Positions 16,823 through 35,270 of a stretch of 64,000 bases of DNA are shown one piece after another. The DNA is from Parapontixanthobacter aurantiacus. Lineage in GTDB: Bacteria > Pseudomonadota > Alphaproteobacteria > Sphingomonadales > Sphingomonadaceae. The stretch covers positions 1 through 64,000 of the forward strand of contig NZ_WTYW01000006.1 of assembly GCF_009827635.1 (NCBI RefSeq). Reading direction: 5' to 3'. A program made the translations under genes and the position numbers. The notes beneath the pieces are model-generated. The model was not told where the DNA came from, searched no databases, and saw only the letters and a list, made by a program, of their open reading frames with translations. The stretch's first letter is position 1. The number at the start of each line of letters is the position of its first letter.

Positions 16823-18103
16823 ATGTCGAAGATCGCTACTCTTTGCAGCGCGGCTGCCGTCGCGTTGCTGGCACCGATCGCGGCGCAGGCGGAAACGACC
16901 TACATCCATGCGGGGTCGGTCATCAGCGATGCGGATGGCGAGCCATCGGGGCAAGCGACGATAACCGTGACGGACGGGCGCATCGTCGAAGTGCTTCCGG
17001 GTTTTGCACAGCCACCGGCGGATGCAACACTCGTCGACCTCAAGGACCATACGGTCCTTCCCGGCCTCATCGATACGCACACCCACCTGTCAGGGGATCC
17101 TGGCGGCGACTATTGGCGCGAGGCCGTCGATCCGACCGAGTGGAACACGCTGGTCGCGGCGAAGAACGCCCGGCTGACAGCGCGCGCCGGTTTCACGACG
17201 GTTCGCGATCTGGGTTCGGGCGGCCAGGTCATGCAGTCGCTCCGGCGAGCTACCGCCGAAGGGCTTGTCCCCGGCCCTCGCATAGTCACCGCAGGCAATT
17301 CAATCGCGATCATCGGCGGCCATGCCGACGTGTCGGGCTTCACGCCGCAGATCAACGAAGCTCTCGCGACGGGGTTCACCTGTACCGGGGCGACCGAATG
17401 TGCCGCAGTCGTGCGCAAGGCGTCGAAGCAAGGCGCTGAAGTCATCAAGATTACCGCGACCGGCGGTGTCCTCAGCCAGCAGGCACGTGGTCTCGAAGCG
17501 CATTTCACCGATGCCGAGATGGAAAGCATCGTGACGACCGCCAATTCGCTTGGACTGAAAGTCGCCGCTCATGCCCACGGTGCGCGCGGGATCGAGGCGG
17601 CAAGTCGCGCTGGCGTGGACAGTATCGAGCACTGCACCTTCGGCGACGATGCCGCGATCGCCGAAATGAAGCGCAACAAGACAGCCTGCGTCCCCACCCT
17701 GATGGCTTATACCGGCATTCGGGAAAGGCTGGGCCAGGGCGTCTATACGCCGCAGGTCGAGGACAAGATACGCGCGACGCTCGAAGTTGTCGGGCAAGCG
17801 GCTGCGAGAATGCATGAGGGGGGCGTCGAACTCGTATTCGGCACGGATGCCGGCGTGTTCGAGCATGGCCGCAACGCAGAAGAATTCAGAATGCTGCGCG
17901 AACTCGTCGGCATGTCGAACAGGGAAGCGCTCGCCAGCGCTACGACGCGCGCCGCCCGGTTACTCGACATGGAAAGCGAAATTGGCCGGATTGCACCCGG
18001 CTATTCGGCGGACCTGATCGCTGTTCGTGGCAATCCGTTGAGCGATGTGACTGTCCTCGAAAATGTCGACTGGACTATGGTGCGCGGCCGGACCATCGAG
18101 TGA
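16823..18103 (+). CDS. Secreted metal-dependent amidohydrolase
   Basis: The 426-residue protein begins with a signal peptide (ends AAQA) and carries the amidohydrolase-superfamily metal site: HTHLSG after LPGLID near residue 85, a Lys in VIKITATGGV that can be the bridging carboxylated residue, AAHAHG near residue 250, EHCTFG, and FGTDAGV with the catalytic Asp near residue 340. The closest recognised group is the imidazolonepropionase-like/Xaa-Pro dipeptidase branch, whose members often cleave N-acyl or C-terminal dipeptides. GAGGGAGGGC precedes the ATG. Together with the divergent S9 peptidase it suggests periplasmic peptide use. Confidence 0.88.
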   Translation: MSKIATLCSAAAVALLAPIAAQAETTYIHAGSVISDADGEPSGQATITVTDGRIVEVLPGFAQPPADATLVDLKDHTVLPGLIDTHTHLSGDPGGDYWREAVDPTEWNTLVAAKNARLTARAGFTTVRDLGSGGQVMQSLRRATAEGLVPGPRIVTAGNSIAIIGGHADVSGFTPQINEALATGFTCTGATECAAVVRKASKQGAEVIKITATGGVLSQQARGLEAHFTDAEMESIVTTANSLGLKVAAHAHGARGIEAASRAGVDSIEHCTFGDDAAIAEMKRNKTACVPTLMAYTGIRERLGQGVYTPQVEDKIRATLEVVGQAAARMHEGGVELVFGTDAGVFEHGRNAEEFRMLRELVGMSNREALASATTRAARLLDMESEIGRIAPGYSADLIAVRGNPLSDVTVLENVDWTMVRGRTIE

Positions 18104-18185
18104 ATATCCTGCGCCGTAAACGTGGCGCTCATCCATAAGCGCTAGACGCGGTGGGCGAAAGACAAGTCAGTTCAAGGAATTATGC

Positions 18186-18656
18186 GTGCGCTTTACAATC
18201 GTAGCCGTGATGTTCGCTCTTGCAGCGCCGCTCTCCGCGCAGCAGGCGGGTGAGGATGGTTCGCTGACGCGCTCCGACTTCATCTCGCAGATGGACGCCG
18301 AATTCTCGCGGCTCGACGGTGACGCGAACGGCTTCATCAACGAGGGTGAGATACTCGCCTCCCAGCGACAAAGCGCACGAGAGGAAGCATTGCGCCAGAA
18401 TGCCCGCGTATTCGCAGGGCTCGACGCCGACAAGGACGGGCAACTCAGCCAGCAGGAGTTCGCGGCGCTGGCCAATCCCGACGCCATTCCCGTCGATGCC
18501 GCCCCGCTGATGCAGCAATTCGACAGCGATCGGGACGGCGTGATCACGCTCGTCGAATATCGCATCGGAACGCAAGCGAATTTCGACAAGATCGATTCGG
18601 ATCGGGATGGCGTCGTCAGCGACATGGAAATGCGGGCTGCCGGAATTGTGCGCTGA
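18186..18656 (+). CDS. Exported EF-hand calcium-binding protein
   Basis: The 156-residue protein has a short signal peptide (ends LSAQ) and four EF-hand loops: DGDANGFINEGE, DADKDGQLSQQE, DSDRDGVITLVE and DSDRDGVVSDME, spaced as two pairs. It should bind calcium in the periplasm or outside the cell. The start is GTG at 18186 with AAGGA upstream. It follows the amidohydrolase by 82 bases. Its partner is unknown. Confidence 0.85.
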   Translation: MRFTIVAVMFALAAPLSAQQAGEDGSLTRSDFISQMDAEFSRLDGDANGFINEGEILASQRQSAREEALRQNARVFAGLDADKDGQLSQQEFAALANPDAIPVDAAPLMQQFDSDRDGVITLVEYRIGTQANFDKIDSDRDGVVSDMEMRAAGIVR

Positions 18657-18821
18657 GCGCCCAGCGGCGAGCGGCGCGTTAACACTGGACACAAAACGAG
18701 TGCCGAAATGAACCGCCGCGGGTGAAGGCAGTGGCTTCGTGCCGAAATCACGCGCATTGAGCGACTTTCGTAATCTGCTAGTGAAGCTGCTTTCCGATTA
18801 TGCCGCAACGGGAGTCCAGAC

Positions 18822-19070
18822 TTGGAAACCATATGGGATTGGCTGACGATATTTTGCTTCGCCGGCCTCGTCACCTTGATGCTACAGCGTTCGAGCGAAG
18901 AGGTTCTTCGCGACAAGCTATGGCACTACGCTCCTCCAGCGGTCGCTTGTGCCGTCGCCAATTACGTCGGCAACGAGGGAATACACTGGCTGGCGGGCCT
19001 GATCCTCGTCGGAGTCATCATCTACATCTTCAAGGTGCTGAAGGTCGAAATACCGGGCGGTCGATCCTGA
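18822..19070 (+). CDS. Small membrane protein, probable XrtV sorting-system accessory protein
   Basis: The 82-residue product starts at a TTG with METIWDWLTIFCF and has two membrane segments, near residues 6-20 and 57-73, with a conserved-looking VANYVGNEGIHWLAG between them. This matches my memory of the small accessory protein family that occurs with exosortase V in sphingomonads; I cannot check the match. It stands just before the exopolysaccharide genes, while the exosortase itself lies 15 kb away. Confidence 0.65.
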   Translation: METIWDWLTIFCFAGLVTLMLQRSSEEVLRDKLWHYAPPAVACAVANYVGNEGIHWLAGLILVGVIIYIFKVLKVEIPGGRS

Positions 19071-19233
19071 TGGGATGCAGCGGCAATGGGGGTGAAAAAG
19101 ACTTGCTCGACTTCGCTTTCAGTCAGGGCGTCATGCGGCATTAATTAAGAAATGTTATTTCGCTATCGAATTGAGATGCGATTAGGAAAGCTTCGCTAGG
19201 ATCGTCCGAGATCTTCCTCGATGCCAAGGTCTT

Positions 19234-20647
19234 ATGAAAACGGGTGATGTCGTGAACGCCAGCGCCAAACTTACAGTCAACGCACGGCAGATCGTCGAAT
19301 CTTCGGCGTCTGGTCGGCTACCCGCGCGCGAGAAGCGTACGATCCTCTACGTCGTATCGATGCTGCTGGACGTGCTTGCCTTGGTCGGCGGATATATCGT
19401 CGCGACCTCGATGCGCGATCTTGCCTATCTGCAGGCAGCGGATCAGTCCCTCATCGGAATTGCACTTCCGGTGTTCATCATGTTCGCCATCGCGCGCGAG
19501 GTCCAGTCCGAGGAGTCCCTAGAGAGCCGATCGATCGGCACGCGGCGCGCGCTCGGGGCCTTGGGTGCGACGGCACTGGTGATGCTCGGTGCGTTGTTCC
19601 TCTTCAACGTCGACGAGTTTTCCCGCCTGGGGTTCGTCATCACCTTTGCGGTTGCCGCCCTTTTCAGCATCTGCGGCAAGCTGATCCTCGATTTCATTTT
19701 CAAGCGCTGGATGGGCGGGTCGGCGACTGCGACCGTCCTTTTGCTTGACGGGCTCGATGTGCCGGATCGGGGCATCAGGGATGTGATCGACCTGCCGGCG
19801 TGCGACATTAAGCTCAGGCTGAACGATCCGGCTAGCATGGACATCCTGTCGCGCCTGGTCGAGCCGTTCGATCGCGTAATTGTCGCCTGCAAGTACGAAA
19901 ATCGCGGCGACTGGGCGATGTTTTTGCGCAGCCACGACGTGGGGGGGCGAGATTATTCTCGACCGCGACCTGCTTTATGGTGCCGTTTCCATCGGTCAAT
20001 ATGCCGACCACGACACTTTGGTCTTGTCGCGCGGTCCCTTGAGCCTGCCGAACCGCTTGCAGAAGCGCACGTTCGACATCGTCGTTTCGGCCCTCAGCCT
20101 GCTGCTGCTCGCACCGATTTTCGCCATCGTTGCGCTGCTGATCAAGCTGGAATCCAAGGGGCCGGTGTTCTTCAAGCAGACGCGTGTCGGACAGGGCAAC
20201 CGGCAGTTTTCGATCTACAAGTTTCGTTCCATGCGGGTCGAGCGCAGCGATTCAGATGGCAATGTCTCGGCATCGCGGGACGACGATCGTGTCACCCGGA
20301 TCGGCAGGATTATCCGCCGCACGAGCATCGACGAATTGCCGCAATTGCTTAACGTCTTTCTCGGTCAAATGAGTGTCGTCGGGCCGCGGCCCCATGCGCT
20401 CGGCTCGCAGGCCGGCAACAACCTCTTCTGGGAAGTTACCAATCAATACTGGTTGAGACATGCCTTGAAGCCCGGTATCACCGGCCTTGCGCAGGTGCGC
20501 GGATTTCGGGGCGCGACCAACCGGATCGAAGACCTGCAGGATCGTGTGCGGGCGGACATCGAATATCTCGCTACCTGGTCGCTGGCGAACGATATCATCA
20601 TCATTCTGCGCACCTTGCGCGTTGTCGTGCACCAGAACGCGTACTGA
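19234..20647 (+). pseudogene. Polyprenyl-phosphate sugar-1-phosphate transferase, broken by a one-base frameshift
   Basis: The gene encodes the priming enzyme of exopolysaccharide synthesis (WcaJ/ExoY-like), which moves a sugar phosphate from a UDP-sugar to undecaprenyl phosphate. The first part (19234 to about 19947) encodes several membrane helices and a Rossmann-like segment. The reading frame then shifts at a run of seven G at 19941-19947. The rest continues in the next frame to 20647 and holds the complete catalytic domain: KRTFDIVVSAL, FFKQTRVGQGNR, FRSMR, RRTSIDELPQL, VGPRPHA and PGITGLAQVRG. With six G the protein would read through GGEIILDRD as one 470-residue chain. Either the indel is a sequencing error, or the gene is off, or expression is switched by slippage. 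Confidence 0.85.
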
Positions 20648-20673
20648 CGGCCGACTGAACGAGCGAACAACAA

Positions 20674-22182
20674 ATGCGCTATATCGGTATTGTCCTCGTT
20701 ATCGCTTCGTTGCCGGGTTTCTATCTGATCCTGACCTCGCAGCCGCAATTTCGGCGATGGGCATATTTCGCCCTCGGTTTCCTGCCGCTCCTGCTGAGTG
20801 CGCTGAATGTCGACGCAGCCTTCTACAACCTGCCGCGCTGGCTCGGATATACCGATTCCATCTCTTTCAGCCTTCTGGACACGCTGGCGCTCGCCCTGAT
20901 CGCGACGCATCGCAACGTGTTGAAGAATCTGCCGTTCGTCGGCCCGTTTCTCGTCTACATCCTGGCCGTTGCGACCTCGACGTTCTTTGCCGAACAGTTC
21001 ATTCCGGCGACGTTCTATGTCGTACAGCTCATGCGGGTGTTCATCATCTTTCTGGCGGTGGCAGCCGTCGTGAAGGAGCCGGAAGCGGTGAAGATGATCT
21101 GTCTGGGGCTTGCCTGTGGTGCCGTCTACCAAGGCGCGATGGGCATTTATCAGCGACTGACCGGCGTTTTCCAGGTGACCGGCTCCTTCGCGCACCAGAA
21201 CACGCTCGGCTTCATGCTGCACTTCGTGACCATTCCGCTTCTTTCGCTGGTCATGCTGAAGAAGCAGCCCGCGATATATCTCTGGGCAATTGCCGCCGGC
21301 ACGATTGCCGTCTCCCTGTCAGCCTCGCGTGGGTCGATCGCCTTCGTTGCGATGGGCGTCGTCCTGCTGTTTGCCCTCTCGCTCATCCGTCAGTCGACAT
21401 CGCGAAAATACGGCATCATCGGAGGGGTCGCCGTCCTTGCCGTCGTCGTATCGCCGATCGTCGTAGCCGGTCTCGACAAGCGTTACGAGACCTTGGACGA
21501 AGGAAGCTATGACGAGCGCGCTGCCTTCGAAAGCGCCGCGACCATGATGCTTCAGGAAAATCCGATGGGCGTCGGCGCGAACCAGTATCCGCTCGCTGCG
21601 AACTTGCTGGGTTATTCGGACCGTGCCGGCGTCATCTGGGCGTATGGCAGTCGCAGCGCGAACGTTCATCACATGTATCTGCTGATGGGGGCCGAGACGG
21701 GATGGGGGGGAATGCTGTCCTTCAGCTTCCTTCTGTTCTGGATAATCGTTCGCGGGCTTGCCTTTGCGTTACGCAATCGACGCGACCCTATCGGAGATCT
21801 CGTGCTGGGATTCACGGTGACCATGATCGTCATCGCGATCCACGGCTTCTACGAGTGGATCTTCGTCACCTACGAAGTGCAAACGATCTTCGCAGTGGCA
21901 CTCGGCATTATTGCCGGGTCGATCCGCCTCGCCAATAGCGGCAAGATTTCGACGATGCTGGCCGAACAGCGGGCGGCAGCCGGGGAAGTCGAGGAAGGCG
22001 AAGAGGCGAACGGCTCGACAGGGGCGGGCGCCCCGGGACTTGCAGGAACGTCCGGTCTGGGTCGCCCCGGAAAGGCACAGCCCGTGCTTCCCCTCGCGGC
22101 GGCGCGAAAGCCGGAAAAAGCAAAGGATCGGGGCATCAAGGGCGTGATGCTGTCTCCCCCGCCGTCACGCTCGACGAAATGA
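20674..22182 (+). CDS. O-antigen ligase/Wzy-like polysaccharide polymerase
   Basis: The 502-residue product has about 11-12 membrane helices and the large periplasmic loop region of the Wzy/WaaL family (SFAHQNTLGFML near residue 170 and SASRGSIAFVAMG near residue 215). It likely joins repeat units of the exopolysaccharide in the periplasm. The last 70 residues are soluble, rich in Ala, Gly and Glu, and end in a basic tail, which is unusual for the family. It lies 26 bases after the priming transferase, in the same operon. Confidence 0.88.
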   Translation: MRYIGIVLVIASLPGFYLILTSQPQFRRWAYFALGFLPLLLSALNVDAAFYNLPRWLGYTDSISFSLLDTLALALIATHRNVLKNLPFVGPFLVYILAVATSTFFAEQFIPATFYVVQLMRVFIIFLAVAAVVKEPEAVKMICLGLACGAVYQGAMGIYQRLTGVFQVTGSFAHQNTLGFMLHFVTIPLLSLVMLKKQPAIYLWAIAAGTIAVSLSASRGSIAFVAMGVVLLFALSLIRQSTSRKYGIIGGVAVLAVVVSPIVVAGLDKRYETLDEGSYDERAAFESAATMMLQENPMGVGANQYPLAANLLGYSDRAGVIWAYGSRSANVHHMYLLMGAETGWGGMLSFSFLLFWIIVRGLAFALRNRRDPIGDLVLGFTVTMIVIAIHGFYEWIFVTYEVQTIFAVALGIIAGSIRLANSGKISTMLAEQRAAAGEVEEGEEANGSTGAGAPGLAGTSGLGRPGKAQPVLPLAAARKPEKAKDRGIKGVMLSPPPSRSTK

Positions 22183-22282
22183 CAGGTGGACCGAGCCGGT
22201 TGGCACTTATCCTTTATTCACATTTCCCCGGCTTCGTGCCAATTCACTCACCTGCGATCCTCGTGCACCGGACTCCCTTTCA

Positions 22283-23497
22283 ATGACCATCGGCTATCTG
22301 ACGAGCCAGTATCCCGCGGCGTCGCATACCTTCATTCGTCGCGAGATTGCCGCGTTGCGGTCCGAGGGCATCGACATCCTGACATTCTCGGTCAGGCCGG
22401 GCCAGATCGAAACCGGAGAGACCGTTCCATCCATCCTCGGGCAAGCGAAGTCGCGTATCGTCTTGCGCGTCATCCGCTCGCTTGTGCTCTCGCCCGTTCG
22501 CTCTTTGCGGACCTTCGTCGTTTCGCAGCAGCATCGCGTGCCGGGCCTGAAGGAATGGGTGTGGAGCATCTTTCACTTCATCGAGGCGCTCGTCCTGGCA
22601 GACATGCTACGCGAGGCGAAAGTGGAGCGATTGCATTCGCACTTCGCGAACAGCGGCGCGACCGTCGGCCTCTTGGCGGCACATTTCGTCGGCATTCCTT
22701 GGAGCCTGATGCTGCACGGCATCTCCGAGACGGACTATCCGATGGGAGGCCTTCTCGCCGACAAGATCGAACGCGCTGACTTCGTGGCTGCGGCAAGCTC
22801 CTTCATGCGCGCGCAGGGGATGAGAATTACCTCGCTGCAAAACTGGAACAAGTTCACGATTGTGCGCTGCGGCGTCGAACTTCCGCCGAAGCCGCCATTG
22901 CCTTCCGGTCCTGTTCGCAATTTCTGCACTGTCGGACGATTGTCCGCCGAAAAGGGATATTTCGGCCTGTTCAAAGCGCTTGCTTCGATGAAGCGGAGAG
23001 GGCTCGATCCAACTTTGACCATTGTCGGCGATGGCCCGCTCAGCAGGGATATAAGCCGTCAGATTGCGGAATTCGGACTGACGGACTGCGTGACCCTCCG
23101 TGGCGCGCTACCGGAACAGGAAGCGCTCGAAGAGATCGGCAAGGCCGATGCGTTCGTCCTGCCGAGCCTAATGGAAGGCCTGCCTGTCGTCCTGATGGAA
23201 GCCATGGCCGCGGGAAAACCGTCCATTGCAGCTTGTGTCGCGGGAATACCCGAACTCATCGAGCATGGCGAAACCGGATTGCTCTTCGAAGTCTCCAACT
23301 GGGACGATCTCGAAAGGCAGATGACGGCGGTGATGGAACAGCCGGATTTGTGCGAAAGGCTTTCCGCGAATGGCCGTTTCAAGGTCGAACAGGAGTTTGC
23401 CATCGAACGTGCCGTTCAACCGCTTCTAGCGCTGTTCGACCAGAAGAAGGCCCTGTCACACGCCGAGCAGGCGCAACTGGCTCAAATTCAGTCGTAA
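22283..23497 (+). CDS. GT4 family glycosyltransferase
   Basis: The 404-residue product has the two Rossmann domains of GT-B enzymes. The C-terminal domain carries VGRLSAEKGYFGLFKAL, and the EX7E signature in SLMEGLPVVLMEAMA near residue 300, followed by GIPELIEHGETGLLF. It should add a sugar from a nucleotide donor to the lipid-linked oligosaccharide on the cytoplasmic side. Its 3' end overlaps that of the convergent kinase gene by ten bases. Confidence 0.9.
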   Translation: MTIGYLTSQYPAASHTFIRREIAALRSEGIDILTFSVRPGQIETGETVPSILGQAKSRIVLRVIRSLVLSPVRSLRTFVVSQQHRVPGLKEWVWSIFHFIEALVLADMLREAKVERLHSHFANSGATVGLLAAHFVGIPWSLMLHGISETDYPMGGLLADKIERADFVAAASSFMRAQGMRITSLQNWNKFTIVRCGVELPPKPPLPSGPVRNFCTVGRLSAEKGYFGLFKALASMKRRGLDPTLTIVGDGPLSRDISRQIAEFGLTDCVTLRGALPEQEALEEIGKADAFVLPSLMEGLPVVLMEAMAAGKPSIAACVAGIPELIEHGETGLLFEVSNWDDLERQMTAVMEQPDLCERLSANGRFKVEQEFAIERAVQPLLALFDQKKALSHAEQAQLAQIQS

Positions 23498-24267
23498 TAA
23501 CGGCTGTAGGTCTTGGACGACGTATAGCCGTAACTGTCGGCCAGTCCGCCCTTGTAGCGGTTTAGAACGGTGCCGATGCATGGCGCAGGGCGAAGCATTT
23601 CCATACTGTCGCGCAATTGCCGCTCCGTCGTTTTGCCGCTGTGCACGACCATGAGATAAGCATCCAGCTGTTCCATGGTCAGCATCGTATCGTCATTGGC
23701 AAAGACCGGCGGCAAGTCGACAAGGACGATGCTTTTCTCCGCTTCAGCGCGCAGCTGTCGCATCAGTTCGGCATAGTTCTCGCTGGCGAGCAGGCTGCTC
23801 GAATCCCCGGAAACCGGCATCGTCGGCAGAATGGCTAGCGGAAACTCTTCCGTCCGGATCGCAATGTCGCGAATGCTGCCGACCTTTCCTTCGAGGAAAT
23901 CGCCGATGCCCCGTTGGACCTCAAGACCGAGATCCTGCGCGATCGAGCCACGACGCAGATCGAGATCGACGAGCAGAACGGGCGTGTCGTTTAGGCGAGC
24001 AATCGCGCCGGCCAGATTGAGAGACAGGCACGACTTGCCTGCGGTCGGCGCCGGCGAGGTAATGCCCACCATGCGCAGATTATGCGCGTATAGCTGCTTC
24101 GTGAACTTCGTCCGCATCAAATTGAACGGACGCGAGCGTATGTCCCGGCTATCGAGGCTTACGATCTTATGTTCCTCCAGCACCGCCGCATCGGGCGTGA
24201 AGGTCGGGAGGGCGGTGTAGTCCAGCAAGGCTTCGCGCGGCGTGGTCATGGGATCGGCTTCGGCCAT
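23488..24267 (-). CDS. Bacterial tyrosine kinase (CpsD/CapB-like, BY-kinase)
   Basis: The 259-residue cytoplasmic protein has a P-loop (SPAPTAGKS near residue 75), a Walker A' motif (VLLVDLDLRRGS) and a Walker B motif (IVLVDLPPV). The C-terminus is rich in tyrosine (YGYTSSKTYSRYYD), the usual autophosphorylation cluster. It should cycle with the Wzz protein encoded 16 bases upstream to control chain length and export. The ATG at 24267 is chosen because AGGAA precedes it; the frame stays open upstream only by chance. Confidence 0.92.
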   Translation of the reverse strand: MAEADPMTTPREALLDYTALPTFTPDAAVLEEHKIVSLDSRDIRSRPFNLMRTKFTKQLYAHNLRMVGITSPAPTAGKSCLSLNLAGAIARLNDTPVLLVDLDLRRGSIAQDLGLEVQRGIGDFLEGKVGSIRDIAIRTEEFPLAILPTMPVSGDSSSLLASENYAELMRQLRAEAEKSIVLVDLPPVFANDDTMLTMEQLDAYLMVVHSGKTTERQLRDSMEMLRPAPCIGTVLNRYKGGLADSYGYTSSKTYSRYYD

Positions 24268-24283
24268 CTCTGTTGTTCCTGTC

Positions 24284-25726
24284 TTATCGTCGACCGGCGA
24301 GACCGGGAATGAAGCGTCTTGCGCCCCGTTGTTTCGGCGTCTTGCGCTTTTCGATGACCGGTACGACGGCCATTGGGTTCTGACCCGTAATTCCGAGCAG
24401 CGCGTCGGGGCCACGGATCGGGCGCATGATGAACTCGACCGCCAGCGCCAGCACACCGCCAAGCGCAAGGCCCGCACCGACGCAGATGGCGAAGATAAGC
24501 AGTCGGTCCGGCCAGATCGGCGTATCGGGGATGATCGGAGCCTCGACCAGCGTGAGGCGTTCCGCAATCTGCTCGTCCTCGGCTTTAACCCCGGCCCGAG
24601 CAGCGGTCAGGCGCTGTTGCACGTCCTGATATTGCGAGTTGAGGCCGGAAAGGTTCTGCTGAAGCGCCGACAGTTCCTGCTGCACGACGGGCGCCCTCGA
24701 CTGAGCGGCCAGGCGGGCATTGAGTTGGGCCTGCTCCTGCGCCTTTGCCGCCTGAAGCGCAGAGATCTGTCGATTGTTGAACGCGATCTGGTCGTCGATC
24801 GCTTCGAAGGGCAGGTTGGAAACATTTTGCCGGGCAAGCTCGCGTGCTTCGGCAAGGCGCTGCTTTGCGCGAACGACGTCGGGATGGTTCTCGGTGTAGA
24901 TTGCACGTGCACTTGCGAGCGCGGCTTCCGCCGACAATACGCCGGGATCGCGCTGATCGGACGACAGTGCGCGATTGCGCTGAATGACGAGATTGGCGTT
25001 GTCGCGCTGCAGCGAGGCGATCTGCACGTCGTAACTGCCGCCACCGCCGCTAACGACCGGTCCGTTCGAAAGAACCTGACCGTTGCGCATGGTAACGCCG
25101 GCAATCTGACTTTGGACGGCGTCGATCCGTTCCTGCAGTTCGGCGGCCTGATCTGAGAGGAACTGGACTGTATTGGTCGCCTGCTCGACATTGCCGGTCG
25201 CGTCGAGCTCCAGAATGCTATCCATCAAGTCCTGGGTCACGGCCTGTGCGGGCGCAGCCTCGGAATACTGGAAGCTCAGGCGATAGGCGATCGTGCGTTC
25301 GTCGCGTCCGGAAGCGACCTCGGCCGTCGTGGGTACGAGCGCGATATTGTCGCGCATCGTCGAGATCACATCGGAAAGCGGCTGCGACTGGCGCGCCTCG
25401 GTATACAGCCGATGCCGTTCGATGAGCGAGACCAGGTTCGGTCTGCTGATCACTTCTTCGCGGATGCGGGCGATACGCCGGTCGACGACCTCGTTGTTGA
25501 GGTCGGCGAAGACTTCCCCCTGCACCTGCGGCGACTGAACGACCATCAAGGCGGACGACTGATAGACCGGCTTGATGAGAAGGGTCGCTGCGACAGCGGC
25601 TATCAGACCGAGGATCAACGGAACTATGATCCACCACTTACGGTCCCACAGGATCGTCGGGATCTGCGAGAAGAAACTTCCGATCCCCGCTCCGGCCGGC
25701 TCATCCGATCCAGGCATTGTGCTCAC
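24284..25726 (-). CDS. Wzz/GumC-like polysaccharide co-polymerase
   Basis: The 480-residue protein has a transmembrane helix near residues 30-52 (WWIIVPLILGLIAAVAATLL), a long periplasmic region with coiled coils near residues 175-260 and 300-400, and a second helix near residues 415-440. The end is basic and likely faces the cytoplasm. This matches inner-membrane chain-length determinants of exosortase-linked polysaccharide loci. It starts with GTG overlapping the stop of the beta-barrel gene by four bases. Confidence 0.92.
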   Translation of the reverse strand: MSTMPGSDEPAGAGIGSFFSQIPTILWDRKWWIIVPLILGLIAAVAATLLIKPVYQSSALMVVQSPQVQGEVFADLNNEVVDRRIARIREEVISRPNLVSLIERHRLYTEARQSQPLSDVISTMRDNIALVPTTAEVASGRDERTIAYRLSFQYSEAAPAQAVTQDLMDSILELDATGNVEQATNTVQFLSDQAAELQERIDAVQSQIAGVTMRNGQVLSNGPVVSGGGGSYDVQIASLQRDNANLVIQRNRALSSDQRDPGVLSAEAALASARAIYTENHPDVVRAKQRLAEARELARQNVSNLPFEAIDDQIAFNNRQISALQAAKAQEQAQLNARLAAQSRAPVVQQELSALQQNLSGLNSQYQDVQQRLTAARAGVKAEDEQIAERLTLVEAPIIPDTPIWPDRLLIFAICVGAGLALGGVLALAVEFIMRPIRGPDALLGITGQNPMAVVPVIEKRKTPKQRGARRFIPGLAGRR

Positions 25727-27054
25727 GAAATTTCTCCGAAAAGATAGCTTATGCCGATCTCGAACAGGAGATTGGGATCGCGGTTGGTGCCAAAGTTGGA
25801 ACTGCTGTCCGACACACCGGCAGTCAGGAAGGCGGACAGGCGGTTTCCGAAATAGGTCCGGTAGCGCGCCTGGGCACCATAGACTTCGGAATCGACCGGC
25901 AGGTCTTCGACGAGTTGGACATTACCAAGCCGGCTGGCGCGGCCATAGCGCGCATTGACCGAAATGGAATCCCGTTCGCTCAAGGCGCGGCTGTAATTGA
26001 CGCCAACGGTCGTCGAATTGCTCAATCCGCCAAAGGTTGTCGGACGCGCACTGCGCGAACCGTTGATGCACAGGTTCGTGCGTGCTCCGCGGTTGCAGAA
26101 CGACCCATTGAAGGCGAAGCTCGTGTTGGAGAAAGTTTCTCCGGTCGCCGTGTTGACCCACGAAAACGATGCGCCGGCCTGAAGCGTAAGGCTCTGCGTC
26201 GGGCTGAGTTGCTGTGAGATACCGATGAGCGGGCTGACGTAATAGGCATCGCCGACCGAAGTGCCGACACGTTCGACGCGCGAGGCATCGATGTTCGTCT
26301 GCAGATTGCGACGCGGCGACAGCTGGTGCGCCCAGCTGAAGAAGGCGCCGGCCTGCCGATAGTCGAATGCATCGATGCGGGCGGTGGATCGCTCCGATGC
26401 CCTGATGCCGACGGCGAAACTGTCTCGTGGCGAAAGGATATGGCGGATCGATGCGCTCGCGCTCAGCGATTCCGAGCGAGTACCAAGTCCGGCCAGGGTC
26501 GGGTCGGAGAAATCGACAAGCGGGAACTCGCCCGGATCGAGACCGGCATCGACGCCGATATTGCCATCGTCGATGCCAAGTTCAGGACCGAGGTCGTCCG
26601 TGTCCACGAATTCGTCTGTCGGATCGTCGAAGCCGACAAGTCCGCCGCGGATAAAATCCTGCGCCCGATTGCGGCTCGAGCGAAAGCCCACGGTCGCGTT
26701 GAGCGAGGTCCGCTCGTTCAGCCGCGTCGCACCGCCGCCGGTGATGTAATAGGCATCCTGAGTGCCGTATCGCTCGCTATATTGCTCGAACCGGATGTCG
26801 CCAGCGATGCGAAATGTCGTGCGCTCGTCTTGATAATAGAGCGACGGTTCGATCTCGATCGTTCCCCGCAGTGCGGTCGTGTCGTCACCGTCGCGCAGAA
26901 AGGCGTTTGTTTCCGCGCCTGCACCGGCAGATACGCGGACCTGCGTTTCCACCTGCGCTTGCGCAGCGGAAGGCATGACGAAGAACGCTGCCGTCCCGGT
27001 GAAGAGGGCAGTCGCGCAACGTGCGCGTATCGTGGCGGTGCGTCCGGCAATCAT
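25723..27054 (-). CDS. Outer-membrane beta-barrel protein of the polysaccharide export operon
   Basis: The 443-residue product has a signal peptide ending in SAAQA, then many alternating amphipathic strands with charged turns and a terminal FGEIS after the strand GISYLF. It fits a porin-like outer-membrane barrel, similar to proteins found in PEP-CTERM/exosortase polysaccharide clusters. It sits between wza-like and wzz-like genes with four-base overlaps on both sides, so it is made together with them. A role as export pore or polymer-modifying partner is inferred from position alone. Confidence 0.8.
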   Translation of the reverse strand: MIAGRTATIRARCATALFTGTAAFFVMPSAAQAQVETQVRVSAGAGAETNAFLRDGDDTTALRGTIEIEPSLYYQDERTTFRIAGDIRFEQYSERYGTQDAYYITGGGATRLNERTSLNATVGFRSSRNRAQDFIRGGLVGFDDPTDEFVDTDDLGPELGIDDGNIGVDAGLDPGEFPLVDFSDPTLAGLGTRSESLSASASIRHILSPRDSFAVGIRASERSTARIDAFDYRQAGAFFSWAHQLSPRRNLQTNIDASRVERVGTSVGDAYYVSPLIGISQQLSPTQSLTLQAGASFSWVNTATGETFSNTSFAFNGSFCNRGARTNLCINGSRSARPTTFGGLSNSTTVGVNYSRALSERDSISVNARYGRASRLGNVQLVEDLPVDSEVYGAQARYRTYFGNRLSAFLTAGVSDSSSNFGTNRDPNLLFEIGISYLFGEIS

Positions 27055-27665
27055 GGGACGATCACCGTATCGCCGCTTTCAATCCGAACGAGATTGGAAT
27101 TGGAAACATCGCTTCTGCTGACGCTACCTTTCAGCAAGCCACCCATCCGCACACGGATCGGGCGCAATTCGTCGCCGAACTTGCGAATGATGACGATGTT
27201 GTTGACGTCGGCGAACTCGTTCGGCCCGCCAGCAAGGCTCAAGGCTTCGAGCGCATTCACGTAGCGACCCGGTTGGAAGTTGCCAGGCGAGTTGACCCGG
27301 CCAATGACCGAGAATTGCATTCCGACCGGAGAGACGGAAATGGTGACCTGCGGGACTTCACCGCGATACTGGTCGCTCAGTCCTTCGCGGATCCGCTCTT
27401 CGAGTTCGCTGGGAAGCAGGCCGCGCACGTTCAACTGACCGATCAGGGGAAACGCAATCGTCCCGTCGGGCAGAACGTTCACGTTGCGCTGCAGGCGTTC
27501 CTCGCCCCAGACGTAGATTTCCAGCACGTCGCCCGGATTAATCCGGTAATCGGCAAGCTGGCCGCTCTGATCCGCGTCCTGTGCCATCGCCGGCACTGTC
27601 GGCAGGCCAACCGAGAGGCCGGCAGCCGTCAACGCAATAATCACTTTTTTCGTCCAAAGCTTCAT
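27051..27665 (-). CDS. Wza/KpsD-type polysaccharide export protein
   Basis: The 204-residue secreted protein has a signal peptide ending in AMAQ, the Poly_export domain (LADYRINPGDVLEIYVWGEE near residues 38-57, LPDGTIAFPLIG), and one SLBB domain (VIGRVNSPGNF). It lacks the C-terminal helical barrel of E. coli Wza, so the outer-membrane channel may need the neighbouring beta-barrel protein. The start at 27665 is preferred because AGAGG lies upstream and the signal peptide follows. It is the first gene of an operon of four: export protein, barrel, Wzz, kinase. Confidence 0.92.
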   Translation of the reverse strand: MKLWTKKVIIALTAAGLSVGLPTVPAMAQDADQSGQLADYRINPGDVLEIYVWGEERLQRNVNVLPDGTIAFPLIGQLNVRGLLPSELEERIREGLSDQYRGEVPQVTISVSPVGMQFSVIGRVNSPGNFQPGRYVNALEALSLAGGPNEFADVNNIVIIRKFGDELRPIRVRMGGLLKGSVSRSDVSNSNLVRIESGDTVIVP

Positions 27666-27731
27666 TAGATAACCTCTGCCCAATGCATTTGGGCCTTGTT
27701 CCCGGGTAATTCCGGCATAGTAAGACAGAAG

Positions 27732-29330
27732 ATGATTTCAATCCAATTAATTAAACATGGAAACCGCCACGTGAAATGGTGGGCTGTCCCATTCTTGGCC
27801 GCGTGTCTCTTAATGGCGGCTTGCTCGGATTCGCGTGAGGAAGCGGCGGAATATGGCGCGCTCGCACAGGCGCATCTTCAGAACGGGAATATTCCAGCCG
27901 CAAGAGAGGCCATTCGTCAAGCCGTTTCGGCCCGAGACGACGTGGTCGAACTGCAACTCCTGCGAGGCAGAATCGAGCTCGCGGCGGAATCACCGGAGGC
28001 AGCTTATGGCGCGTATTACGCAGCACTCGCTCTGGACCCTGTAAATGTCGAGGCATTGCAGGCCGTGTCGCAGTTGGGCCTGACGACGGGTAATCTGGAC
28101 CAGTCGCTCGACGCGACCGACCGGATACTGACGCTCGATCCGAACCAGCCAAGCGCGCTTCTTGTCCGCGGACTCCATGAACTGGTCAGGCGCCGATATT
28201 CCGATGCGATCGAATATGCCGACCGACTTGCCGCAACGGGCGGCATGAACGAGAATGCGCGCATTCTAAAGGCCCGTGCGCTGTTCCTTGATGGCAAAAC
28301 AAAGGAAGCGCTCGCTCAGGTTGCCTTGCCGGGTGAGGCAGAGGCCATCGAAGGCGGCATCGCGCCATCTGAAACGATTGCTTTGACCCGGCTCGAGATA
28401 TTCCGGGAGATGCGCGACGAGGCGCGGTTGGCGGCGGAATTTACGCGCCTGAAAGGTATGCGGCAGCAGGATGTCGGCTTGCGCCTCGACGAAGCCAATT
28501 TTTATTTTCGCCGGGGGCGGCCAGACGAAGCAGCCGACTTTCTGACGAATGCTTTATCCAATGACAATGTGACCGAGACCAATGCGGTCGAGGCAACGCG
28601 CATTCTCGACGAATACGGCGCCGATGTGCTGGATGCAGGGCAATGGCGGCAGATCGCATCCCGAACGAGCCAGGATGCCCTGCCGACGCTGTCTCGCTAT
28701 CTCCTGACAACCGAAGCCCTCGACCCCGCGCGCATTCTTATCAATGCGATCGAAGGGCGCGCCAAGCCGGGGCTGGTTGCCCGCCTCCAGGCGATCGCGG
28801 GCGACAACTCCGCCGCTGCGCGCTCGGCCCAGGCGGTGCTTTCCGCCGATAGCACCAATTGCGACGCGCTCGTTGCACAGAGCCGAGTCTTCCTCGCACG
28901 CAATCGTGCCGAAGATGCCGTCCGCCTTGCGCAGCAGGCAAGTTCCGAATGTCCGCAGGACATAGGAGCATTCTTCGCGGCGGCTGAAGCTTACGATGCT
29001 TGGGAGCGCCCGGCCTCGACGCGCCGCATCCTTGGCCAGGCCTTGACTGAAAATCCGCAGAACTTCACGGTCGCGAAGACCTTTGCGGACTGGCTCATGG
29101 CAAATGGCGAGGCGCGGCCGGCTGTTGCGGTGATGCGCCGCTATACCCGGGACTCGCCGTCCTCCCAGCGCGGCTGGTCCTATTACGGCACCATCTGTAC
29201 CCGCGCCAATGCCAGCTGTGCGGACGAGGCGCGCGCCCGCTTCGCCTCGGTATCCGACCGCTATGGCCTCGACCTGTCGACGGGACAATTGCAGCCCAAT
29301 GGCCTGTTCGGCCGCTTCGTAACGCGCTGA
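27732..29330 (+). CDS. TPR-repeat lipoprotein of the exosortase/polysaccharide locus (PrsT-like)
   Basis: The 532-residue product has a lipobox (LLMAAC) near residue 30 and then TPR-like helical repeats throughout (for example AREAIRQAVS and AYYAALALDPVNVEALQ). It resembles the TPR protein PrsT of PEP-CTERM systems but is much shorter than the usual 900 or so residues. It is divergent from the export operon, 66 bases apart, and followed by the WecB-type gene after 14 bases. It may be a scaffold for the export machinery; that is inference. Confidence 0.82.
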   Translation: MISIQLIKHGNRHVKWWAVPFLAACLLMAACSDSREEAAEYGALAQAHLQNGNIPAAREAIRQAVSARDDVVELQLLRGRIELAAESPEAAYGAYYAALALDPVNVEALQAVSQLGLTTGNLDQSLDATDRILTLDPNQPSALLVRGLHELVRRRYSDAIEYADRLAATGGMNENARILKARALFLDGKTKEALAQVALPGEAEAIEGGIAPSETIALTRLEIFREMRDEARLAAEFTRLKGMRQQDVGLRLDEANFYFRRGRPDEAADFLTNALSNDNVTETNAVEATRILDEYGADVLDAGQWRQIASRTSQDALPTLSRYLLTTEALDPARILINAIEGRAKPGLVARLQAIAGDNSAAARSAQAVLSADSTNCDALVAQSRVFLARNRAEDAVRLAQQASSECPQDIGAFFAAAEAYDAWERPASTRRILGQALTENPQNFTVAKTFADWLMANGEARPAVAVMRRYTRDSPSSQRGWSYYGTICTRANASCADEARARFASVSDRYGLDLSTGQLQPNGLFGRFVTR

Positions 29331-29344
29331 CGAAAGCTGGTTCG

Positions 29345-30112
29345 TTGGCCGAACGCGTGGAATTTCTCGGGCTGCCGTTCGACGTCGCGGATCAGGTCCA
29401 GACGCTTGAAATGATCGACGTCCGGGCGCGGCAGGACGAGTTCTCTCTCGTCGTAACGCCGAATGTCGATCACATGGTGAGGCTATCGGCAATGGAGCGC
29501 GATGCCCCCCTATGGAACACTTACCGCGAAGCCGAGGTCATCGTCTGCGACAGTCGGATCCTGCAAGGTCTCGCCCGGTTGTCGGAGATCGATCTGCCAC
29601 TTGTCACGGGCAGCGATTTGACGGCGAAGCTCGTTGCGGACCTCGCGCGGCGGGGGCGTTCGGACACCGCCAAAGTCGCGGTAATCGGCGGGGATGCGGC
29701 GCTTCTCAACGAGTTGCGGACCCTCTATCCGACGATCGAATGGACGCATGACGAACCGCCGATGGGCGTCGCGAGAAACCCGGCGGCTCAGGAAGAAATC
29801 GCCGAATTCGTCGAGCGGAGCGAAGCGCGCATTTTCCTGTTCGCGATCGGTTCTCCGCAAAGCGAGATCGTCTGTGACCTTATCAAAAAGCGCGGAAAAG
29901 CGCGGGGTGTAGGGCTGTGCATCGGCGCTTCGCTCGAGTTCATGACGGGCGAAAAAAAGCGGGCGCCGAGGTGGATGCAGGCGCTGAAACTGGAATGGCT
30001 TTTCCGCTTGGGAAGCGAGCCGACGCGCCTCTGGCGGCGCTATCTCCTCGATGGTCCACGCATCTTCCGAGTCTGGAAAAAGTGGCACGATAACAGGCGT
30101 CTGGCCCGGTGA
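29345..30112 (+). CDS. WecB/TagA/CpsF family glycosyltransferase (GT26)
   Basis: The 255-residue product has the family signature VVTPNVDHMVRL near residue 37, VTGSDLTAKL near residue 85, and GSPQSEIVCDLIKKR with GLCIGASLEFMTGEKKRAP in the C-terminal half. Such enzymes add N-acetylmannosamine or related sugars to lipid-linked intermediates. The start is TTG at 29345, 14 bases after the TPR gene. Its stop codon directly abuts the stop codon of the convergent GT2 gene. Confidence 0.9.
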   Translation: MAERVEFLGLPFDVADQVQTLEMIDVRARQDEFSLVVTPNVDHMVRLSAMERDAPLWNTYREAEVIVCDSRILQGLARLSEIDLPLVTGSDLTAKLVADLARRGRSDTAKVAVIGGDAALLNELRTLYPTIEWTHDEPPMGVARNPAAQEEIAEFVERSEARIFLFAIGSPQSEIVCDLIKKRGKARGVGLCIGASLEFMTGEKKRAPRWMQALKLEWLFRLGSEPTRLWRRYLLDGPRIFRVWKKWHDNRRLAR

Positions 30113-35146: not shown

Positions 35147-35270
35147 GGCGAGACGCGTAGTTCGTATTATTCGGTCGCGGATAGCCTTTGGTGGCTCATC
35201 GGTCGTGAATTCTCGACGATTTGCAACTGGCTTCTTTTCTATGCAGGCGGTGAGGGGGGGGCAACGGTGC

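Follow-up and report, generated by a model that had tools for sequence, protein, structure and literature searches.

The described proteins closest to the gene analyzed here are the priming enzymes WcaJ (TIGR03023), EPS_sugtrans (TIGR03025) and WbaP. The C-terminal part of WcaJ of E. coli was reportedly able to restore the mucoid phenotype on its own (PMC4361858), and the N-terminal domain of WbaP is reported to be a nucleotide-sensing regulator (PMC10942596). Non-mucoid Klebsiella pneumoniae carried deletions in poly-A/poly-T runs of wcaJ, wzy, wzx and wcsM (PMC7590720), and wcaJ was also lost through the insertion of IS1 (PMC7142929). A run of five G biases the mutation of mucA in P. aeruginosa devoid of mismatch repair (PMC2781719).

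The length at which G runs are considered relevant differs between studies: a survey of Neisseria takes nine G as the minimum at which phase variation becomes likely (PMC5953494), and a study of Campylobacter jejuni counted poly-G/C tracts of at least 7 (PMC4965091). In Akkermansia, the G9 run of Amuc_1413 differs in length among strains and occurs as a mixture within reads (PMC13055324). The closest published account concerns the meningococcal capsule gene siaD, whose 7C run was judged in a 2025 review to be an accidental mutation-prone tract (PMC11868660). Among the titles and abstract openings listed from the open-licence literature, none concerned homopolymer phase variation in the Sphingomonadales.

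In this study we analyzed a window (the whole stretch of 64,000 nucleotides, positions 1 to 64,000 of contig NZ_WTYW01000006.1 of Parapontixanthobacter aurantiacus) containing a gene of a WcaJ-type priming phosphoglycosyl transferase (19234-20647), whose reading frame shifts internally by one base at 19941-19947. The gene shares with WcaJ, EPS_sugtrans and WbaP the sequence, the order of domains (a PF13727-like region followed by PF02397) and the setting in a polysaccharide locus, but in the assembly it is split by the frame change. Both here and in siaD (PMC11868660) a polysaccharide gene contains a seven-base run, and about 40 runs of this kind occur in the genome. Capsule switching has been linked to changes in the length of the siaD tract, whereas the present case comprises one sequence; in this genome, moreover, the runs are fewer than composition predicts. 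The seven G lie below the Neisseria limit and exactly at that used for Campylobacter (PMC5953494, PMC4965091). The Klebsiella cases likewise concern single-base homopolymer changes in the priming transferase or another capsule gene, but these were poly-A/poly-T deletions from selected non-mucoid colonies and not poly-G (PMC7590720). Amuc_1413 offers another G run in an exopolysaccharide gene, the protein of which is truncated when one G is gained; there, however, the run has nine G, was seen in several isolates and lies in an export gene, in contrast to seven G in a priming enzyme (PMC13055324).

Reading frames and domains of the priming transferase gene

In the window sequence the run comprises exactly seven G (Table 1). 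The frame opened by the ATG at 19234 crosses it and ends after 372 codons, the final 136 of which do not correspond to the frame of the WcaJ-type family, and the catalytic frame, one base over, extends from a TTG at 19880 to 20647 (255 codons). The break follows residue 236, approx. 40 codons ahead of the catalytic domain. With a codon-usage model, the best coding frame shifted by one base across the run for both 180-base and 300-base flanks. To judge from the aligned relatives, the G-rich stretch at this junction represents the codons of a conserved Val-Gly-Gly-Glu motif.

Table 1. Features of the split priming gene and of the adjacent polysaccharide locus (window coordinates).
Feature	Position	Strand	Basis
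N-terminal part of large phosphoglycosyl transferase (PF13727-like region), ends ...SHDV	19234..19941	+	TIGR03025; PF13727 below cut-off; 70% identity to G109
G7 run, one-base frame change	19941..19947	+	Sequence and codon-usage model
Out-of-frame tail of the product starting at 19234, stop 20350-20352	19948..20352	+	ORF 19234..20352, translation
Catalytic part, other frame	19943..20647	+	PF02397; 80% identity to G109; PDB WbaP chain matches
TTG codons 20018, 20024, 20039 and 20057 between run and domain	20018..20059	+	Start-codon scan of catalytic frame
Wzy_C (O-antigen ligase/polymerase-like) protein, in-frame G7 at 21704-21710	20674..22182	+	PF04932; codon-model frame
Family 4 glycosyltransferase	22283..23497	+	Best NCBIfam model EpsE, below cut-off
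Tyrosine-autokinase-like protein, chain-length determinant, outer-membrane protein, polysaccharide export protein	23488..27683	-	Profile matches; nearly full-length G109 matches
PrsT-like TPR protein and WecG/TagA-type glycosyltransferase	27696..30112	+	Profile matches; G109 matches

The N-terminal part matched positions 1-129 of TIGR03025 (27.8 bits, E 1.5e-6) and positions 2-125 of the WcaJ model TIGR03023 (E 2e-4), and its match to PF13727 (22.1 bits, E 1.7e-4) fell under the cut-off of 25. The catalytic part matched positions 1-178 of the 179 of PF02397 (220.8 bits, E 1.2e-65, cut-off 27; domain placed at 20063-20629), as well as positions 238-453 of TIGR03023 (E 2.4e-91) and 228-444 of TIGR03025 (E 3.1e-87). 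Each piece alone scored under the curated cut-offs of the two TIGR models. The identity to the intact relative G109 extends over residues 7-236 of the N-terminal part. Since the two parts match complementary pieces of one family, they constitute one large phosphoglycosyl transferase gene read in two frames, i.e. a split gene of the WcaJ-type family rather than an intact member of it.

Matches of the catalytic part in the PDB comprised chains of WbaP and 205-residue chains of diacetylbacillosaminyl-phosphate transferase. The RRTS-DELPQL and VGPRP stretches are kept in the alignment with WbaP, the Asp-Glu pair being the catalytic one. A preliminary description of this DNA had placed a frame-shifting G7 within the gene of a priming sugar transferase in a polysaccharide locus and considered the rest of the catalytic domain fully conserved. 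All of this was borne out: the frame shift by the sequence, the open reading frames and the codon model, the identity of the gene by the PF02397 and TIGR03023 matches and by its relatives, and the state of the domain by the extent of the PF02397 match and the relatives' loci.

Between the run and the domain, the four TTG codons listed in Table 1 are the only ATG, GTG or TTG codons of the catalytic frame, the further TTG at 19880 lying upstream of the run. The Shine-Dalgarno match at the TTG codons of this frame does not exceed 3 bases, compared with 4 at the priming gene's own start. This is weak evidence, because the starts of two neighbouring genes (20674 and 22283) also match by 3 bases. 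RNA around the run folded no better than shuffled sequence (z 0.25), and a scan of 18600-22600 for promoters and terminators gave the same counts as in shuffles.

A scan of genome contigs with the catalytic part, which may omit records very near the source genome, returned 49 loci with at best 62% identity; the best named matches were to Sphingomonas and Qipengyuania. The genome encodes a second PF02397 protein, and no other was found. This small protein (187 aa; G000:C4:8567-9100, L152:7562-8125) shows 40% identity to the catalytic part of the split gene, and its gene adjoins epimerase-like and CapD/WbpM-like genes (named by eye) in what is apparently another polysaccharide locus. It probably primes another glycan.

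The surrounding polysaccharide locus

The best NCBIfam models for the genes of the locus are of the XrtA/Eps kind, none of them reaching its cut-off, and the superfamily model TIGR00696 passes the cut-off for the WecG-type protein. The gene order of the G109 locus is the same as that of the window. The stretch fetched from G109 (L150, G109:C18:12000-31999), however, contained nothing that matched the Wzy_C protein; in it the family 4 glycosyltransferase gene lies directly 3' of that of the priming enzyme (L150, 10411-10583), and the polymerase gene of G109 may have been moved or lost. In the fetched stretches, whose edges cut off some of the end genes, counterparts were not found for three proteins in G019 (the family 4 glycosyltransferase, the S9 peptidase and the EF-hand protein) and for the EF-hand protein in G128. 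A decaying locus was considered and is not supported, as the neighbouring genes match those of the relatives over nearly their full length.

The G7 in the Wzy_C gene is situated 1.8 kb from that of the priming gene. The G+C content of the region 18001-24000, which covers the priming enzyme, Wzy_C and glycosyltransferase genes, is 0.58-0.60, compared with 0.62-0.63 in the preceding 8 kb.

The junction in related genomes

A DNA search of 59 relatives (mostly one genus each) yielded matches in 23, that in G019 being the best by far. The N-terminal part, searched against 397 genomes of the family, had matches in 180 of them, and 147 of the 150 matches listed have an open frame of at least 460 codons. 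The other three of these 150 are the window gene (388 codons from stop to stop) and two distant copies of the priming enzyme, in G241 (L164; 383 codons) and G313 (L163; 355 codons), the frames of which break within the catalytic region. Broken copies of the priming enzyme therefore do occur in this family or in its assemblies. The G241 copy sits near a contig end.

Among 30 homologous loci examined (L080-L109), the window gene is the only one split at the junction; all 29 others form one open frame of 463-510 codons. This led us to reject the idea that two separate genes are the designed state. At the junction, the ten of these 29 loci that are closest (L081-L090) read V-G-G-E, encoded with a longest G run of 7, in frame, in the nearest relative G109, of 5 in G019 and G103, and of 2-4 in the remaining seven. 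The length of the G run at the junction is thus not kept among the relatives.

Relative to G109, dN was 0.222 for the N-terminal part and 0.148 for the catalytic part, with similar values for the neighbouring genes, and synonymous sites were near saturation (pS 0.72 and 0.77, respectively). Relative-rate counts with G019 as the outgroup were 17:12 and 19:14, a slight excess on the window side, and by these counts neither part showed a significant speed-up (chi-square <1 each). These values indicate that the priming gene has been under selection until recently, in keeping with the earlier claim that it was functional a short time ago. The codons of both parts still look constrained. Selection up to recent times would be seen equally under a reversible switch, after a young mutation, or if the assembly were in error.

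G runs and homopolymers across the genome

Merging by hand of 70 overlapping seven-G matches gave 42 runs of at least 7 G on the two strands of the genome. A second-order Markov model, built from 93 kb of the genome, predicts 34.4 such runs per Mb (approx. 100 in total), and a first-order model approx. 250. Long G runs are avoided in this genome, with 42 observed against about 100 expected.

The frames on the two sides of each of the 42 runs were compared with the codon model. With flanks of 180 bases, (i) 17 runs had the same frame on both sides, (ii) 22 had one side that did not pass as coding, (iii) one lay at a change of strand, and (iv) two coincided with a change of frame; with 300-base flanks the respective numbers were 11, 27, 2 and 2. 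The second of the frame changes (L123, G000:C1:1459254) is the junction of a glycosyltransferase gene with that of a hexapeptide-repeat transferase. The 17 in-frame runs include those in genes of a GMP synthase, an amino-acid kinase, LigD and an RND transporter (Pfam), and a run in a ProRS-like gene, which ends shortly beyond it, was counted among the 22. Our impression from the Pfam names is that the genes holding G runs are mostly housekeeping ones.

We also surveyed homopolymers of at least 5 bases in the window, 38 stretches of 4 kb and two loci (approx. 240 kb, with some overlap). The frame was kept at 145 of the 155 homopolymers that had coding sequence of one strand on both sides. Two of the 10 exceptions belong to the event described here (T5 at 19921 and the G7), seven are gene junctions (L123 and six assigned by reading of the frames), and one (L115:1704) is doubtful, being located in a doubtful coding sequence. 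With L115:1704 set aside, no homopolymer tested in these approx. 240 kb coincides with a frame change inside a gene except at the break of the priming gene. Overall the assembly is clean, a fact that reduces but does not abolish the likelihood of a local error, and the frame tests of G runs and homopolymers gave no support to a generally poor assembly. The unusual point is that a G7 breaks a gene, and not the presence of a G7 as such. The genome encodes MutS (open frame of 910 codons) and MutL (645 codons), and a mutator strain is for this reason not supported.

Origin of the frame change

The explanation that we favour, and to which we assign an about even chance, is a real one-base slip in a stretch that is G-rich by accident, in a gene that is intact in the 29 other loci examined, leaving the catalytic domain out of frame. 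The encoded enzyme of the WcaJ type would initiate exopolysaccharide synthesis by transferring a sugar phosphate to undecaprenyl phosphate. A one-base replication slip in the Val-Gly-Gly-Glu codons would place the catalytic domain out of frame, and the seven-G state would then yield a 372-residue product. Because this product would be without the catalytic domain, priming would most likely be absent, and the exopolysaccharide of the sequenced strain is most likely unprimed, provided that the sequence is right. Such a change would be of recent date, and reversion could be expected at the low frequency that is usual for these runs. With the genus represented by one genome and one strain sequence, the slip may exist in the assembly alone. 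Some enzyme activity could also remain if the catalytic frame were translated separately, by analogy with the active C-terminal part of E. coli WcaJ.

Single-base errors in the length of homopolymers are a common residual fault of assemblies. An intact gene in the strain, with the G run misread during sequencing or assembly, is accordingly a serious contender, albeit one that we hold to be short of an even chance. It predicts that the 29 other loci are intact at the site and that neither part of the gene has decayed, both of which were found; it is made less probable by the 17 other runs of at least 7 G or C that keep the coding frame on both sides, and by the singularity of this break among the homopolymers tested (L115:1704 aside). 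An evolved phase-variable switch, in which slippage of the G run would turn the priming enzyme and the exopolysaccharide on and off, had been raised in the preliminary description beside a sequencing error, and it is here that our results depart from it: its identification of the transferase, the conserved domain and the recent selection stand, but the switch is not supported and appears improbable. Of the ten closest other loci, nine have only 2-5 G at the site, even if the nearest relative shares the seven; both mismatch repair genes are in place; and G runs as long as this one are fewer than expected from composition and lie in frame at 17 other places in the genome. The homopolymer does sit in the committing enzyme, and the same genome has a run of 11 G two codons 3' of the ATG of another gene. 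Seven G are short by the Neisseria cut-off (PMC5953494) while tracts of at least 7 were taken as loci in C. jejuni (PMC4965091), and the G9 of Akkermansia, reported as phase variable (PMC13055324), is a better candidate for a switch of the G-run type than the G7 described here. For siaD, the 2025 review sees no evolved mutability in the 7C run, with approx. 40 such runs per genome, many of them arising by chance (PMC11868660).

The remaining possibilities retain a product with catalytic activity. It is very unlikely that the split gene still works through initiation at an internal TTG, giving a small enzyme without the N-terminal domain. The break does precede the catalytic domain, which is whole in one frame of 255 codons, and solved relatives of 205 residues exist; the candidates ahead of the domain are TTG codons exclusively, with weak Shine-Dalgarno matches, although these signals do not decide against a start there, since the starts at 20674 and 22283 are equally weak. 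Ribosomes cannot restart ahead of the domain after termination of the upstream frame, because its stop at 20350-20352 lies inside the domain, and a restart behind that stop was rejected on the same ground. Seven G form, in principle, a slippery sequence, so that programmed recoding (ribosomal frameshifting or slippage of RNA polymerase) could yield the full protein. We nevertheless rejected a programmed frameshift, which we rate as hardly probable at all, as none of the 29 other loci needs a shift at the site and the RNA around the run gave no signal of structure. A further reading, with a similarly slight probability, is that the slip alters control: on the report that the N-terminal domain of WbaP is a nucleotide-sensing regulator (PMC10942596), a small catalytic enzyme devoid of this domain might be made, and the cell could change reversibly between a feedback-controlled and an uncontrolled priming enzyme. 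The sufficiency reported for the C-terminal part of WcaJ (PMC4361858) is compatible with the internal start.

Taken together, the frame change at the G7 looks like an ordinary event: either the run slipped by chance or the assembly is wrong by one base, and an evolved switch is not indicated. If real, the slip adds a further case of a strain that loses its exopolysaccharide through slippage in the priming enzyme, and it matters for the reading of phenotype from this genome. An accidental G run can be told from an evolved switch by comparing relatives, counting the runs of the genome and testing the frames.

Other G runs in the genome

The 11-G run (G000:C5:65397-65407; L146:1998-2008) is located at the 5' end of a gene of approx. 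500 codons, which by eye resembles a membrane glycosyltransferase and had no Pfam match at 1e-5. The frame of the ATG that precedes the run soon stops, and a GTG 3' of the run shares the frame of the gene. The 5' ends of four distant homologues (26-30% identity) are without such a run. This gene is a better phase-variable candidate than the priming gene with its G7.

Several other long runs were observed. In the window, a G8 at 35254-35261 has no clear coding sequence on its left side. A G15 (G000:C1:374007-374021) lies just 3' of an L-asparaginase-like gene (identified by eye), and a 16-base run (G000:C2:34007-34022) is found in poorly coding DNA. A G8 and a C9 form a hairpin-like pair (G000:C3:76616-76635) 3' of a TonB-receptor gene.
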